Shown in pieces: positions 3,306 to 58,260 of a DNA stretch of 64,000 bases. Source of the DNA: Lysinibacillus sp. B2A1 (GTDB lineage: Bacteria; Bacillota; Bacilli; Bacillales_A; Planococcaceae); contig CP027224.1 in the NCBI GenBank assembly GCA_002973635.1, positions 4,164,501 to 4,228,500 on the forward strand, in the 5' to 3' direction. A model generated the notes under the pieces. That model had not been told where the DNA came from, did not search any database, and saw only the letters and a program-made list of their open reading frames with translations. The position numbers and the translations under genes are program-made. How positions within the stretch are numbered: the stretch's first letter is position 1; each line of letters starts with the position of its first letter.

Positions 3306-3515
3306 TTGATTCAGCGAATGTTTTTGTACTGAAAGCGAAGCGTCAGGTACAGTATACTATCACCTCAATAAGAGATGAGATGAATGCATTTTTTTCCTAT
3401 TCAGCAAGCGTTTGTACGCCCGTTGAATCAAGATAAAGTCTCTGGCATTTTGAAGAGGAGCTTTGCGAGCAAGCTTGAGAAAATCTGGACGTAAGTACGC
3501 TGTTGCGTAATTGAT
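3306..3515 (+). ncRNA. Structured dispersed element, copy A (HEARO / IscB omega-RNA-like), no ORF
   Basis: Same architecture as 37258-37451. An outer stem TTGATTCAGCG (3306-3316) pairs with CGTTGAATCAA (3421-3431, one G-U). Shared sequence blocks appear in the same order: TGAGATGAAT (3376-3385), AGATAAAGTCTCTGGC (3431-3446), a hairpin around 3457-3475, AAAATCTGGACG (3480-3491) and GCGTAATTGAT at the end (3505-3515). Copy A has an extra GAAAGCGAAGCG hairpin module near 3330-3350, also seen in the element at 20505-20648. Co-varying outer stems with different sequences argue for an RNA fold. The HEARO name rests on remembered general layout and is unverified. No nuclease or transposase gene adjoins it. 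Confidence 0.5.
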
Positions 3516-18038: not shown

Positions 18039-18127
18039 ATCAATTACGCCCCAGCTTAAGCGCGTTCAGATTTTTTTGAGCGCACTCAAAAAAATTCATT
18101 CAAAATTCGTGACATCCACCAGGGGGC
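18039..18127 (-). repeat. 3' fragment of the dispersed structured element (copy D)
   Basis: Read on the minus strand, CCTGGTGGATGTCAC, then a hairpin TTTTTTTGAG/CTCAAAAAAA (18071-18094), AAAATCTGAACG and GGGGCGTAATTGAT at the end match in order the 3' half of the element at 37258-37451 (CTGGCGGATGTCAC, hairpin, AAAATCCGGACG, GCGAAATTGAT). The 5' half with the outer stem is absent; the fragment begins right after the dat terminator. The remaining bases 17800-18038 hold only the promoter region of the NERD-like gene. Confidence 0.6.
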
Positions 18128-18137
18128 AAAAACAAGA

Positions 18138-18185
18138 TAAAAAAACTACCCTAATGGCTTGGAGTGAACCAAAATTAGGGTAGTT
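18138..18185 (-). terminator. Terminator of the pepV-dat unit
   Basis: On the minus strand AACTACCCTAAT pairs exactly with ATTAGGGTAGTT, followed by TTTTTT. Confidence 0.88.
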
Positions 18186-36409: not shown

Positions 36410-37074
36410 GTAATCTTTCAGTGTTTATCGTAGAAGACGATCCAATGGTACTTGAAGTAAATAAAGGTTTTTTAAATAAATTGAATGGTTTTCAGCTCGT
36501 GGGTGAATCAGTCAATGGACGTGATGCCTATGACAAAATTATCAGAAAGAGACCTAATCTAATTTTACTAGATATGTTTTTACCAGATATGACAGGCATG
36601 GAATTATTCTTAAAGCTTCGTGCAGAACGTATCCCCTCGGATATTATTATGATTACTGCTGCAAGAGATGCACCTACAGTACAGGAGGCCCTTCGACTGG
36701 GAGCCATCGACTATCTTATTAAGCCATTTCGTTTTGAACGCTTTGAAAAAGCATTGCAGCAATATAAAAGCTCTACAAAAAAGTTACAAAGTTCACAGGC
36801 ATTTAATCAAGAGGACATCGACAAATGGCTTGGATTACAGCATGAAACAATGGAGCTTCCTAAGGGACTAAACACGATAACAATGCAACAGATTCTTGAT
36901 TATCTAACGACACACCGAGCAGCTATTACCTCAGAACAGCTAGCTCAAAATGTCGGAATGGCCAGAGTAACCGTCCGTAAATATTTGGATTTCTTAGCTA
37001 CGAAGGGAACTGTCTCGATTGAATTACAATATGGGACAGTTGGTCGTCCAACGAAATACTATTCCATTAAGTAG
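36406..37074 (+). CDS. dctR: Response regulator, CitB/DctR family
   Basis: 222 residues. Receiver domain: acidic pocket VEDDPM, phospho-acceptor aspartate in NLILLDMFLPDMTG, ITAARD and the lysine of YLIKPFRFERF. The C-terminal helix-turn-helix (SEQLAQNVGMARVTVRKYLD) and GTVGRPTKYYSIK are typical of DcuR/DctR/CitB. The partner kinase is the overlapping dctS. The likely target is the TRAP operon starting at 37578, by analogy with Bacillus DctSR, which controls a dicarboxylate carrier gene. A terminator follows. Confidence 0.9.
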   Translation: MSNLSVFIVEDDPMVLEVNKGFLNKLNGFQLVGESVNGRDAYDKIIRKRPNLILLDMFLPDMTGMELFLKLRAERIPSDIIMITAARDAPTVQEALRLGAIDYLIKPFRFERFEKALQQYKSSTKKLQSSQAFNQEDIDKWLGLQHETMELPKGLNTITMQQILDYLTTHRAAITSEQLAQNVGMARVTVRKYLDFLATKGTVSIELQYGTVGRPTKYYSIK

Positions 37075-37103
37075 AATAGGATTCAATTCATTAACTAAAT
37101 AAC

Positions 37104-37198
37104 AAGAATCTGCCCTTTCCTCGAGTATATTTCAGTCCCTGCTTAAGGTTGAAATATATTCTGTTCCCTTTTTCAAGGAATAAGGCAGATTCTTTTTC
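37104..37198 (+). terminator. Nested terminator of dctSR
   Basis: AAGAATCTGCC (37104-37114) pairs with GGCAGATTCTT (37184-37194) and runs into a T-run. The roughly 70-base interior contains a second hairpin TATATTTCA/TGAAATATA. An inner stem nested within a terminator is unusual and may be functional. Confidence 0.75.
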
Positions 37199-37257
37199 TA
37201 TTACAGATTTTTAATAAGCATTTACTTTTATCTATCGGGACATCTGTTTTGTAACAG

Positions 37258-37451
37258 TTTATCTTCATTCAGTAGAAGACTCCCACCTTTACAAGTGGTG
37301 AGATGAATACGATGTAGGTCCTTTTCAGTGGGTGTTCAAACACCTACTGAATGAAGATAAAGCCTCTGGCGGATGTCACAGATTTTCAAAGGAATGAATT
37401 GTGCCTTCACAATTCAAAATCCGGACGCAATTACGCCAAGGCGAAATTGAT
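37258..37451 (+). ncRNA. Structured dispersed element, copy B (HEARO / IscB omega-RNA-like), no ORF
   Basis: A perfect 18 bp outer stem, TTTATCTTCATTCAGTAG (37258-37275) with its complement at 37344-37361. Inside are a CCAC/GTGG hairpin, TGAGATGAAT (37299-37308) and TTCAGT-GGTGTT hairpin arms (37325-37352) that compete with the outer stem. Beyond it come AGATAAAGCCTCTGGC (37355-37370), GAATTGTG/CACAATTC (37396-37415), AAAATCCGGACG (37416-37427), CGCCAAGGC (37434-37442, pairing with 37362-37371) and GCGAAATTGAT. The same order and fold as at 3306-3515. No nuclease gene is linked. The family name is from remembered layout only. Confidence 0.55.
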
Positions 37452-37577
37452 TAAAATAATAAATTGTTATATACCATAAATACCAAAATGTCCATTAAAA
37501 CCATAATATTGAGTATTTATTGAAATGATTTACAATGAAAATCGTTCACATCTTATAGAGATTAGGGGTGAATTTGT

Positions 37578-38621
37578 ATGTGGAGTAATCGTTTTGCACG
37601 CAGTTTTGTTAGCGTTCTCATTTTCATAACAATTCTGTTAGTTTCATGTCAGGAAGACGTTTACCCTACCGACAATGAGCAGTTGAGTCATGAGGAACAA
37701 ATCGTTATTCGATTTTCACACGTAGTTGGTGAAAATACACCAAAAGGAATGGCAGCGGTAAAATTCGCAGAGCTAATCAAAGAACGTAGTAATGGTCACG
37801 TAGAAATTCAAGTGTTTCCAAATGGGGTTCTTTATAAAGATGGTGAAGAAATGAATGCCTTATTACGTGGCGATATTCAAATGATTGCACCTGCTATTTC
37901 CAAAATTACAACGCTTGTGCCAGAGTGGTCAGTTATGGATTTACCTTATGCATTTAAAAATGCAGATGAAGTGCATACATATGTCAACAGTGCTGTTGGT
38001 CAATCGTTAATGACAAAATTAAATGCCCATAATCTATTTTCCATGGGTGTTTGGGATAGTGGATTTAAGCAGCTTAGCAATAGTATTCGACCTATAGAAG
38101 CTGTTCAGGATTTGAATGGCTTGCGTATGAGGATTATGCCAAGTGATATATTAGCTGAACAATTTTCCATTGTTGGAGCCTATCCAAAACGCATTGACTT
38201 CAATACTGTTTTTCATCAACTGCAAAGAGGCAATGTCGATGGTCAGGAAAATACACTGACAAACATTACAAGCAAAAATCTACATTCACTACAAGACTAC
38301 TTAACGATTAGTAACCATGGCTATCTTGGTTATTTACTGCTGATGAATCATGAATTTTGGAATTCCCTGCCTGAAGATGTGCAAACTCTGCTCATAGAAA
38401 CACTAGAGGAAGTACAAGAATGGGAATGGCAGCTTGCAGAAAAATTAACAGCAGAGAGACTTGAAGAAATGAAAGCATGTGATTGCATCAAAATTTACAA
38501 TTTATCGGATGAAGAGAAGGAAGAATGGGAATCTGCATTTGAGCCTGTTTATCGCTATTATGCAGAAAACTATGGGAAAAGATATATCCAAGCACTTCCT
38601 AAAAATCAATCACATCACTAG
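37578..38621 (+). CDS. DctP-family solute-binding lipoprotein, first of two (possible DctB-like co-sensor)
   Basis: 347 residues. Signal peptide with lipobox LVSC (cysteine at about residue 24), so anchored outside the membrane. The mature part is a TRAP-type binding protein: IRFSHVVGENTPKGMAAVKF, GLRMRIMPSDILAEQF and the GNVDGQENTLTNI motif; the key arginine of the carboxylate site is probably in LRMRIM. It lies right after dctSR and before a second such gene. In B. subtilis the dedicated binding protein DctB works with the DctS kinase, so this one may be a sensor partner rather than the transport subunit. Good ribosome binding site (AGGGGTG). Confidence 0.85.
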   Translation: MWSNRFARSFVSVLIFITILLVSCQEDVYPTDNEQLSHEEQIVIRFSHVVGENTPKGMAAVKFAELIKERSNGHVEIQVFPNGVLYKDGEEMNALLRGDIQMIAPAISKITTLVPEWSVMDLPYAFKNADEVHTYVNSAVGQSLMTKLNAHNLFSMGVWDSGFKQLSNSIRPIEAVQDLNGLRMRIMPSDILAEQFSIVGAYPKRIDFNTVFHQLQRGNVDGQENTLTNITSKNLHSLQDYLTISNHGYLGYLLLMNHEFWNSLPEDVQTLLIETLEEVQEWEWQLAEKLTAERLEEMKACDCIKIYNLSDEEKEEWESAFEPVYRYYAENYGKRYIQALPKNQSHH

Positions 38622-38678: not shown

Positions 38679-39722
38679 ATGAAAAAATGGCTTTTCATGT
38701 CACTTATGGCTGTGTTAGTTCTAGCACTTGCAGCTTGTGGTGGCGACAAAAAAGAAACATCTGCGCCAGCAGCTGAGGGTGATGGCGGATATACAAAAGA
38801 CAAACCGCTTATTATTAAATTCTCACATGTTACATCAATCGATAGTGTAAAAGGAAAAGCTGCTGATGCTTTTGCAAAATTAGTAGACGAAAAAACTGAA
38901 GGTAAAGTAAAAGTTGAAGTTTACCCTTCTTCTCAATTATACGGGGATAATGATGAATTAGATGCCCTAGTATCTGGAAATGTTCATATGATTGCTCCAT
39001 CTGTTACAAAAATGGTTAAAATCGACCCACGTTGGCAATATGTTGATATGCCATATCTATTTGAGAATGAAGAGCACGTACGTAAATTCTTTACTTCTGA
39101 CGTAGCTAAAACAATTCTTGAATCGAATCAATTAGCAGCAAATGATATTAAAGGTTTAGTATTCTGGGAAAATGGCTTTAAACATTTCTCAAATAACAAG
39201 CATCCACTTGAAAAAGTAGAAGATTTTAAAGGCTTAAAGTTCCGTGCACAAGCAGGAAAAGTATTAGAAGCACAATTTAAAGCGTTAAATGCTGGCTCTG
39301 CAACAATTGCATTTGGTGAAACATACGCTGCCCTACAACAAGGAACAGTTGATGGACAAGAAAATACTTTCAACAACTTTGATACACAAAAATATCAAGA
39401 AGTACAAAAATATTTCTCAGTATCTGAACATGGACGTCTTGACTATGCAATCTTTGTCAATAAGTCATTCTGGGATAAAATCCCTGCCGATTTATTAACA
39501 GCAGTGGAAGCATCTTTAGATGAAGCAACGAAGCTAGCTTGGGATTTAGCTGCTGATGAAAACGCAAAATCATTTGAGAATATCAAAAACTCTGGTATTG
39601 AAGTACTTGAGTTAACGGCTGAGCAAAAAGAAGCTATTAAAGCAAAACTTGAACCAGTATATGAAGAGTTTGGTGAAGTTATCACAGAAGAATTAATTAA
39701 TGGTATTCGTGATCTAAAATAA
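38679..39722 (+). CDS. dctP: TRAP transporter solute-binding lipoprotein DctP
   Basis: 347 residues. Signal peptide with lipobox LAAC (MKKWLFMSLMAVLVLALAAC), then a DctP fold: IIKFSHVTSIDSVKGKAADA, GLKFRAQAGKVLEAQFKALN and TVDGQENTFNNFDTQKYQEV. The arginine of KFRAQ is the expected carboxylate-binding residue. It captures a C4-dicarboxylate or similar organic acid outside the cell for DctQM. Strong GGGGGGA ribosome binding site. It differs clearly from the first binding protein (perhaps 35-40% identity by eye). A structured 288-base gap separates it from dctQ. Confidence 0.9.
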   Translation: MKKWLFMSLMAVLVLALAACGGDKKETSAPAAEGDGGYTKDKPLIIKFSHVTSIDSVKGKAADAFAKLVDEKTEGKVKVEVYPSSQLYGDNDELDALVSGNVHMIAPSVTKMVKIDPRWQYVDMPYLFENEEHVRKFFTSDVAKTILESNQLAANDIKGLVFWENGFKHFSNNKHPLEKVEDFKGLKFRAQAGKVLEAQFKALNAGSATIAFGETYAALQQGTVDGQENTFNNFDTQKYQEVQKYFSVSEHGRLDYAIFVNKSFWDKIPADLLTAVEASLDEATKLAWDLAADENAKSFENIKNSGIEVLELTAEQKEAIKAKLEPVYEEFGEVITEELINGIRDLK

Positions 39723-47153: not shown

Positions 47154-47395
47154 AAAAAAACTCGCCCCTTTCTTTATTAAGAAAGGGACGAGAGAATTCG
47201 TATCTCCCGCGGTACCACCCAAATTAGTGATCACACTCGGCTCTAACTTCCTTAACGCGGAAGGAACGGCACGCGTTGCTTCACGCGGGCAGACTCAGAA
47301 GGTGAGTTCAATATGCTCTCCTACTAGCTTCCACCAGCCGCTAGCTCTCTAAAAAGAATCACAAATTTACTATTCCTCATCACTGTCTTTACATG
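47154..47395 (-). promoter_or_regulatory. T-box riboswitch (Leu) with terminator, upstream of leuS
   Basis: On the minus strand the T-box GGGTGGTACCGCGGG is present (47206-47220), followed by the terminator CTCGTCCCTTTCTT/AGAAAGGGGCGAG and T7 (47154-47192). Upstream, a stem-I region starts near 47395 and carries GAACTC, giving CTC (Leu) as the probable specifier codon. Uncharged tRNA-Leu would stabilise the antiterminator and raise leuS expression. Confidence 0.92.
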
Positions 47396-58140: not shown

Positions 58141-58260
58141 ACTCTTATCGTTCAAGGGGTTCCCCTTGCATCAGGTTGGCACCAACGCATGTCGTGAAAT
58201 AGTTCATGCAGGTTGCCGGGTTTCACAGGGCCTGACCCTCCACCAGCTCGGGATAAGAGT
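58141..58260 (-). promoter_or_regulatory. SAM-I (S-box) riboswitch upstream of metK
   Basis: On the minus strand CTCTTATCCCGAG closes P1 with CGATAAGAG; GGTGGAGGGTC, GGCCCTGTGAAACCCGGCAACC (split over P2/P3) and GGTGCCAACCTGATGC are textbook S-box elements. With SAM bound, the terminator at 58077-58119 forms and metK is switched off. The distance from terminator to start is about 220 bases, longer than usual. Confidence 0.97.

Follow-up and report, generated by a model that had tools for sequence, protein, structure and literature searches.

The segment 37263-37451 on the forward strand of Lysinibacillus sp. B2A1 is best explained as a non-autonomous member of a large repeat family, mobilised by a mechanism that includes an HUH step; we give this reading a probability of about 0.6. 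That the segment is a mobile element matched to its target by an internal guide is highly probable, and for the HUH step taken by itself the odds are about even. Its hosts belong to a single bacterial family, that of Lysinibacillus, Sporosarcina, Psychrobacillus and their kin. All coordinates refer to the whole stretch of 64,000 nucleotides that was analysed, called the window below.

Structure of the window copy

A preliminary description had reported an ORF-less structured element at 37258..37451, bounded by a perfect 18 bp inverted repeat around about 70 bases. The two outer arms (37258-37275 and 37344-37361) are indeed 18 nt each and 100% complementary, with a spacer of 68 nt, and no ORF of 80 aa or more was found inside the structured region. 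Within the extent then given, 37263-37451 corresponds to the mobile unit, whereas the outermost 5 bp (37258-37262, TTTAT) are target and not element. The RNA minimum free energy was -65.1 kcal/mol against -44.0 (sd 4.7) in shuffled sequences (z -4.5), and 0 of 200 shuffles were equally stable. In the minimum-energy fold GCC-TCT-GGCG (37362-37371) is paired with CGCC-AA-GGC, as had been proposed for a second domain; the hairpin described inside this domain exists too, with 9 bp (37395-37403 with 37408-37416) instead of 8. The alternative hairpin said to compete with the outer stem was also recovered (TTCAGTGGGTGTT / AACACCTACTGAA, 37324-37351, 92%). The following features were assigned, R1 being a covariance model of the 3' domain built from 40 sequences.

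37258..37262, + strand: target pentanucleotide TTTAT, kept on the left, outside the element (empty sites of relatives)
37263..37451, + strand: mobile element of 189 nt, C...TTGAT (site occupied in the window and empty in relatives; repeats in the genome; R1 97.9 bits for 37362-37451)
37263..37275, + strand: 5' arm of stem 1 within the element (inverted-repeat pairing)
37344..37356, + strand: 3' arm of stem 1 within the element (inverted-repeat pairing)
37357..37361, + strand: guide ATAAA, complementary to the target TTTAT (pairing here; family-wide guide test)
37324..37351, + strand: inner hairpin competing with stem 1 (inverted-repeat pairing)
37362..37451, + strand: conserved 3' domain, with helix P1, variable hairpin P2 and end hairpin (40-sequence alignment A1, pair counts)
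37428..37449, + strand: end hairpin CAATTACGCC-AA-GGCGAAATTG, which cannot form together with helix P1 (both partners changed in 3 of 10 pairs)
37447-37451, + strand: right end TTGAT (at the end hairpin)
18039..18136, - strand: second copy, lacking the left part of stem 1 (R1 56 bits for 18127-18039; outer limits by eye)
3438..3515, + strand: degraded remnant of the 3' domain (R1 20.6 bits, E 0.002)

The layout had been likened to HEARO RNA (RF02033), and the element is likewise structured and ORF-less, with a T-rich motif beside one end and a flank abutting the other. It could accordingly be read as a HEARO/IscB omega-RNA, or as another RNA-guided nuclease scaffold, standing without its nuclease gene. 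The Rfam check proposed with that reading gave no meaningful match over 37000-37700 at E<=10, RF02033 included, and at E<=0.5 ten further copy loci held only Bacillaceae-1 modules inside their elements and no RF02033. TnpB (PF07282), also to be looked for elsewhere in the genome, was not found there, the control search being positive in 6 of 14 genomes; IscB (PF14239) was not found either, in a weak search that was silent in all of its controls (0 of 14 genomes). The HEARO, TnpB and IscB readings were rejected on these grounds, and a nuclease scaffold is now a very remote prospect. Excerpts of PMC9755519 describe HEARO as reprogrammed via a 5' spacer, whereas the guide of the present element is internal, and there is no sign of the element being a CRISPR-like guide RNA.

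Filled and empty insertion sites

The dctP locus that holds the window copy was found in 14 of 31 genomes of the same genus, and the element was present in none of them. The empty sites read TTTAT in 7 of the 14, TTTTT in 6 (the nearest relative, G001, included) and TTTAC in 1. The seven with TTTAT have AACA(G/A)-TTTAT ahead of the right flank, and the window has AACAG-TTTAT-[CTTC...TTGAT]-TAAAATAAT, the element being enclosed in square brackets. The comparison of filled and empty sites thus delimits the element as 37263-37451, with TTTAT staying on the left and nothing duplicated. The flanks are 89-90% identical to loci of L. boronitolerans and L. sphaericus.

Two possibilities had been left for this position, a passenger or a part of the leader of the first binding-protein gene. 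Lying on the same strand, 126 nt upstream of the dctP start, the element might be taken for a cis-regulatory leader evolved for dctP. However, every relative in which the locus was found has dctP without the element, so that it is not the dctP leader by origin, and the same element occurs beside many unrelated genes. As an origin the leader is refuted and retains next to no credit. The passenger interpretation is the one that held, the insertion being absent from 14/14 relatives and the sequence being that of a mobile structured element; a secondary effect on dctP is possible, as a candidate only.

A related empty site was found for each of 18 elements. The guide is matched in six cases (TTTAA for L029, L030 and L119; TTTAT for L001, L091 and L252), 1 is compatible (L274), 2 match only in part (TTTAG for L245 and TTGAT for L217) and 9 are unreadable at base level. 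In the comparison of L108 with L024 the empty site, TTTAT, matches the guide. At the readable empty sites insertion is precise, 3' of TTTAT or TTTAA, with sharp ends and no target duplication. The mnmA site is filled in the source genome and in 1 of the 30 displayed relatives (G001). The terminal inverted repeats and target duplication of a classical MITE were not seen, the two ends differing in base counts and the empty sites showing no duplication. When L217 is compared with L029, a filled TTTAT site faces an empty counterpart TTGAT, the same letters as the right end of the element; this is possibly an excision footprint or chance.

The internal guide

The conserved GCC core is directly preceded, on its 5' side, by five bases complementary to the target. 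Guide ATAAA goes with TTTAT and TTAAA with TTTAA, and guides differ between lineages. In a looser search left ends were located in 223 of 284 copies. Because these ends had first been found by pairing, which is partly circular, the guide test was redone without the flank bases, the copies being aligned by 11 inner stem positions only with one mismatch allowed. Under this stricter procedure left ends were found in 155 of 274 copies, as against 1 of 274 in the control. All five flank bases pair with the guide in 104 of the 155, compared with 36 when guides are reassigned among copies, and the next five flank bases do so in a single copy. At the fifth flank base, pairing is seen in 152 of the 155 (2000 permutations: mean 62.4, maximum 81). 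The same guide-target picture was obtained with one copy per distinct arm. Since the target predates the insertion at the agreeing empty sites, the match there reflects target choice and not later co-evolution. Judged from sequence, an internal guide predicted to pair with the target, a property of IS200/IS605-type elements, is present. Where stem 1 contains a Bacillaceae-1 module, the guide is partly lost, and such copies are nevertheless common.

If the guide works in this way, it would represent a natural guide-target pairing in a gene-less 189-nt element, with at least two natural specificities. In principle it would be related to the extended pairing engineered into IS608, as given in excerpts of PMC5934647.

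Covariation of the 3' domain

In the 40-copy alignment of the 3' domain, 95.5% of cells are paired, and both partners have changed in 10 of 27 pairs (78 cells; mean of shuffles 24.3; 0/500). In the end hairpin such double changes affect 3 of 10 pairs (14 cells; shuffled 2.5; 0/500). Covariation among homologous copies, the lack of which the preliminary description had named as telling against a structured element, is thus present. Helix P1 has both-side changes in 1 of 9 pairs and is supported mainly by conservation. The invariant positions of alignment A1 include GGATGTCAC; the invariance of the core is partly a matter of choice, because the 40 sequences were selected by a pattern that fixes much of it, GGATGTCAC among the fixed positions. 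A pseudoknot formed by P1 and the end hairpin simultaneously was considered and rejected as sterically unlikely, by reasoning.

Copies in the genome and host range

The source genome (5.51 Mb, one contig) was searched with 221 nt around the element, which gave 122 matches at E<=10. Once secondary pieces were dropped, dispersed copies stood at no fewer than 40 separate places, and at least 64 places were counted when copies recognised through a nested module were added. This place count took 40 of the 122 matches of the whole-element search, leaving aside secondary pieces and single-arm matches, together with 42 of 64 and 29 of 30 matches of two further genome searches, and per-genome copy numbers are lower bounds throughout, the candidates scored being capped at 40 in the source genome, at 13 per genome in the 61-genome comparison below, at 16 in the survey of the order and at 10 in the class-wide draw. 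The truncated copy at 18039..18136 (- strand) lies 3' of TTTAT (18137-18141), behind a terminator-like hairpin, and is probably the copy A of the preliminary description.

With one copy as query, matches were obtained in 35 of 61 genomes (the source genome and 60 relatives), namely every one of the 32 in the genus, 2 of the 5 taken from elsewhere in the family and 1 of the 24 representing the class. Model R1 matched 162 of 261 genomes of the order, in 13 of 19 genera, and all matches listed fall in the same family as the source genome. In a class-wide draw R1 matched 19 of 398 genomes, 17 of the same family and 2 of one other family. Among the matches listed, records with copies are mostly Lysinibacillus, Sporosarcina, Solibacillus, Psychrobacillus and Metasolibacillus. 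No match was found in collections of plasmid and phage records with one copy as query. Copies L098, L112, L122, L127, L153 and L154 come from records labelled Arthrobacter beigongshangensis REN13, a name that denotes an actinobacterium; this record may be misnamed or mixed, as the flanks look low-GC.

Mechanism and mobilising enzyme

Excerpts of PMC5934647 and PMC8612924 describe IS608 and ISDra2 as inserting 3' of TTAC or TTGAT on the lagging strand, with the target kept on the left and not duplicated, and IS608 as pairing the target with an internal guide. With these IS200/IS605 elements (same excerpts) the present one shares a short T-rich target kept on the left, an internal guide, the absence of duplication and a right-end hairpin. 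Unlike them, it carries neither tnpA nor tnpB, has a long stem 1 between target and guide and has a large covarying middle. Insertion 3' of a kept target without duplication is the rule here as in that type, with L245 and L217 as exceptions. Subterminal hairpins are also present: the end hairpin covaries, and stem 1, on the left, is longer, indeed much longer, than a canonical left end.

We propose that the element would move in single-stranded, folded form. The guide, adjoining the GCC core on its 5' side, would select the target by base pairing, as G_L does for C_L in IS200/IS605, and the TTGAT end, held by the end hairpin, would play the part of C_R. Cutting and joining would be performed by an enzyme acting in trans, most likely of the single-strand HUH/Y1 type; which enzyme acts is the least certain step. 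Against this explanation stand the TTTTT of the nearest relative at the window site, the incomplete matches of L245 and L217, the hosts in which no Y1 was found and the module copies with a damaged guide.

The Y1 found in the source genome is that of IS200, with 3 intact copies and 1 broken one, whose ends and flanks differ from those of the element (by eye). PF01797 (Y1) was not found in 46 of the 162 genomes that carry the element; among the 40 element-rich genomes, those at the scoring cap, it was not found in 14. The association between element and Y1 is weak (Fisher p 0.04), and Y1 as an obligatory partner was rejected for that reason. The most similar copy pairs within sampled genomes are at most about 97% alike, so that the enzyme may have been lost after past activity. 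No autonomous partner with these ends was found, and no ORF-sized insert was seen. Among 309 copies the gaps in the 3' domain do not exceed 203 nt save in two cases (648 and 3343), which are neighbouring separate elements. No span of stem 1 exceeds about 225 nt; of the 184 copies searched for stem 1, 68 gave none, and there an insert could still lie. The stem-1 domain was also tried for homology with the local IS200, in its 3' region; this was discarded as not significant, 192 of 1000 shuffles being as good.

The same observations can be set in an RNA-mediated scheme, in which a transcript would fold, its guide would pair with TTTAW in single-stranded DNA, and insertion would be completed through reverse transcription or through RNA-guided joining, as with group II introns. 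RNA-like covariation, sense orientation in 144 of 166 co-directional settings, the nested Rfam RNA modules and the hosts in which Y1 was not found would all suit it. However, single-stranded DNA hairpins would covary too, and the backbone matched no group II intron or other partner RNA in Rfam; we hold RNA-mediated mobility to be improbable.

Among described repeats, bcr1-bcr3 of the B. cereus group are the closest in style, the comparison being by description only. Excerpts of PMC6542083 and PMC3446304 present them likewise as small ORF-less intergenic repeats, MITE-like, of 100-400 bp, tied to a TTTAT motif, often transcribed and often located in UTRs and operons. Site-specific mobility of the same sort, TTTAT-associated and with an enzyme of its own, could be imagined here. 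Yet the host family is another one, no guide appears in those excerpts, bcr elements are described there with TTTAT repeats whereas the target here is not duplicated, and bcr1 is said there to occur on plasmids whereas one copy of our element matched no plasmid record. Mobility of the bcr type is therefore a doubtful alternative to the guided single-strand mechanism. REP/RAYT repeats are likewise intergenic and structured, REP being tied to tyrosine transposases in excerpts of PMC3733652; the element, at about 190 nt, is far from the 20-40 nt of REP and has no GTAG or CGTC tag at its foot (by eye). No published description of the repeat was found in a literature search that ran largely without subscription journals. 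More speculatively, and with rather low likelihood, the family might be a mobile class almost confined to one family of bacteria, internally guided, independent of Y1, TnpB or IscB of known type, serving as host frame in which Bacillaceae-1 repeatedly nests, and with a transcript that is perhaps the targeting molecule.

Nested Bacillaceae-1 RNA modules

Extra structured modules are present in many copies, and their positions are fixed: at the 3' arm of stem 1, in the loop of P2 and, nested once more, within the P2-loop module (by eye). Rfam identifies these modules, but not the backbone element, as members of Bacillaceae-1 RNA (RF01690); the window copy is free of them. Above the gathering score, RF01690 gave 28 matches in 20 loci of the source genome and 20 matches in 18 named loci. 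Of these 48 matches, 42 adjoin an element half on the same strand and 6 do not, a share biased upward because the loci had been fetched for holding the element or the modules. For the innermost module relative, a separate match reaching the gathering score was obtained once (L129:4425-4480). Bacillaceae-1 is listed only as a likely RNA of Bacillaceae in excerpts of the 104-motif paper (PMC2864571); this orphan Rfam family thus gains a setting, mostly inside these mobile elements in the loci examined.

Two of the 6 matches that adjoin no element half are L142:5681-5747 and L160:2195-2261, where Bacillaceae-1 RNA is found in a different shared backbone (GGAGTGGAG..CTGGGCGACTCCT..GATCAGC), which suggests another repeat family hosting the same guest. 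In L065:400-1200, L064, L066 and L037 the Bacillaceae-1 module contains tandemly repeated units, each of about 36 nt (TTTATCTGTGCGAAAGCGAAGCGACAGCAACA..), with about 9 units in L065. The composite copy L035 has a strong fold (z -7.2) and gave no inverted pair in the repeat search at the setting used. A Group II intron D1D4-5 match (L035:1613-1820, 180.6 bits) lies about 440 nt downstream of this composite copy, in the same genome.

Genomic context and orientation

Of 284 distinct copies, 7 fall within an ORF of at least 80 aa. The two neighbours are both co-oriented with the element in 144 copies and both opposed in 22 (p 4e-23), and many right ends stand 10-30 nt ahead of a downstream start; genes here are simple ORF calls, and distances of -5 and -1 arise from the TTG at the element end. 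Many copies being just before a start codon or between co-directional genes, the family is a plausible source of regulatory variation. A rule of insertion behind terminators was rejected: 22% of 150 co-directional left flanks reach -8 kcal/mol or lower, against 12% at 80 nt further up.

Relative to replication, 118 copies are oriented with it and 22 against it in 11 genomes with usable skew, after G093, G245 and G165 were dropped for lack of a clear skew and G010 was flipped (beforehand, 118 against 36). Genes in those genomes behave similarly (452 of 569 with replication, near the 118 of 140 of the elements), so that the orientation of the elements gives no independent support for a lagging-strand mechanism. 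Between leading-strand genes 72 elements run along the genes and 7 are opposed, and between lagging-strand genes the numbers are 5 and 4. Replication and transcription are thus not separable as causes of orientation, each alone being formally disfavoured (p 0.002 and p 0.013, with 9 lagging-strand pairs only).

Downstream of the window copy, two adjacent DctP-type binding-protein genes (37578-38621 and 38679-39722) precede DctQ and DctM. At the place that corresponds to 37251-37475, relatives have an inverted repeat upstream of dctP, TAACAGTTT-N11-AAATTGTTA, and the insertion point falls within its spacer. Of the 14 relatives, 8 show an exact match at the two half sites, and the element moves the halves apart by 189 bp. 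This inverted repeat may be an operator of the neighbouring response regulator (PF00072, DpiA-like HTH). The window also holds a T-box leader (47181-47392, - strand, 117 bits) and a SAM riboswitch (58142-58259, - strand, 71 bits).
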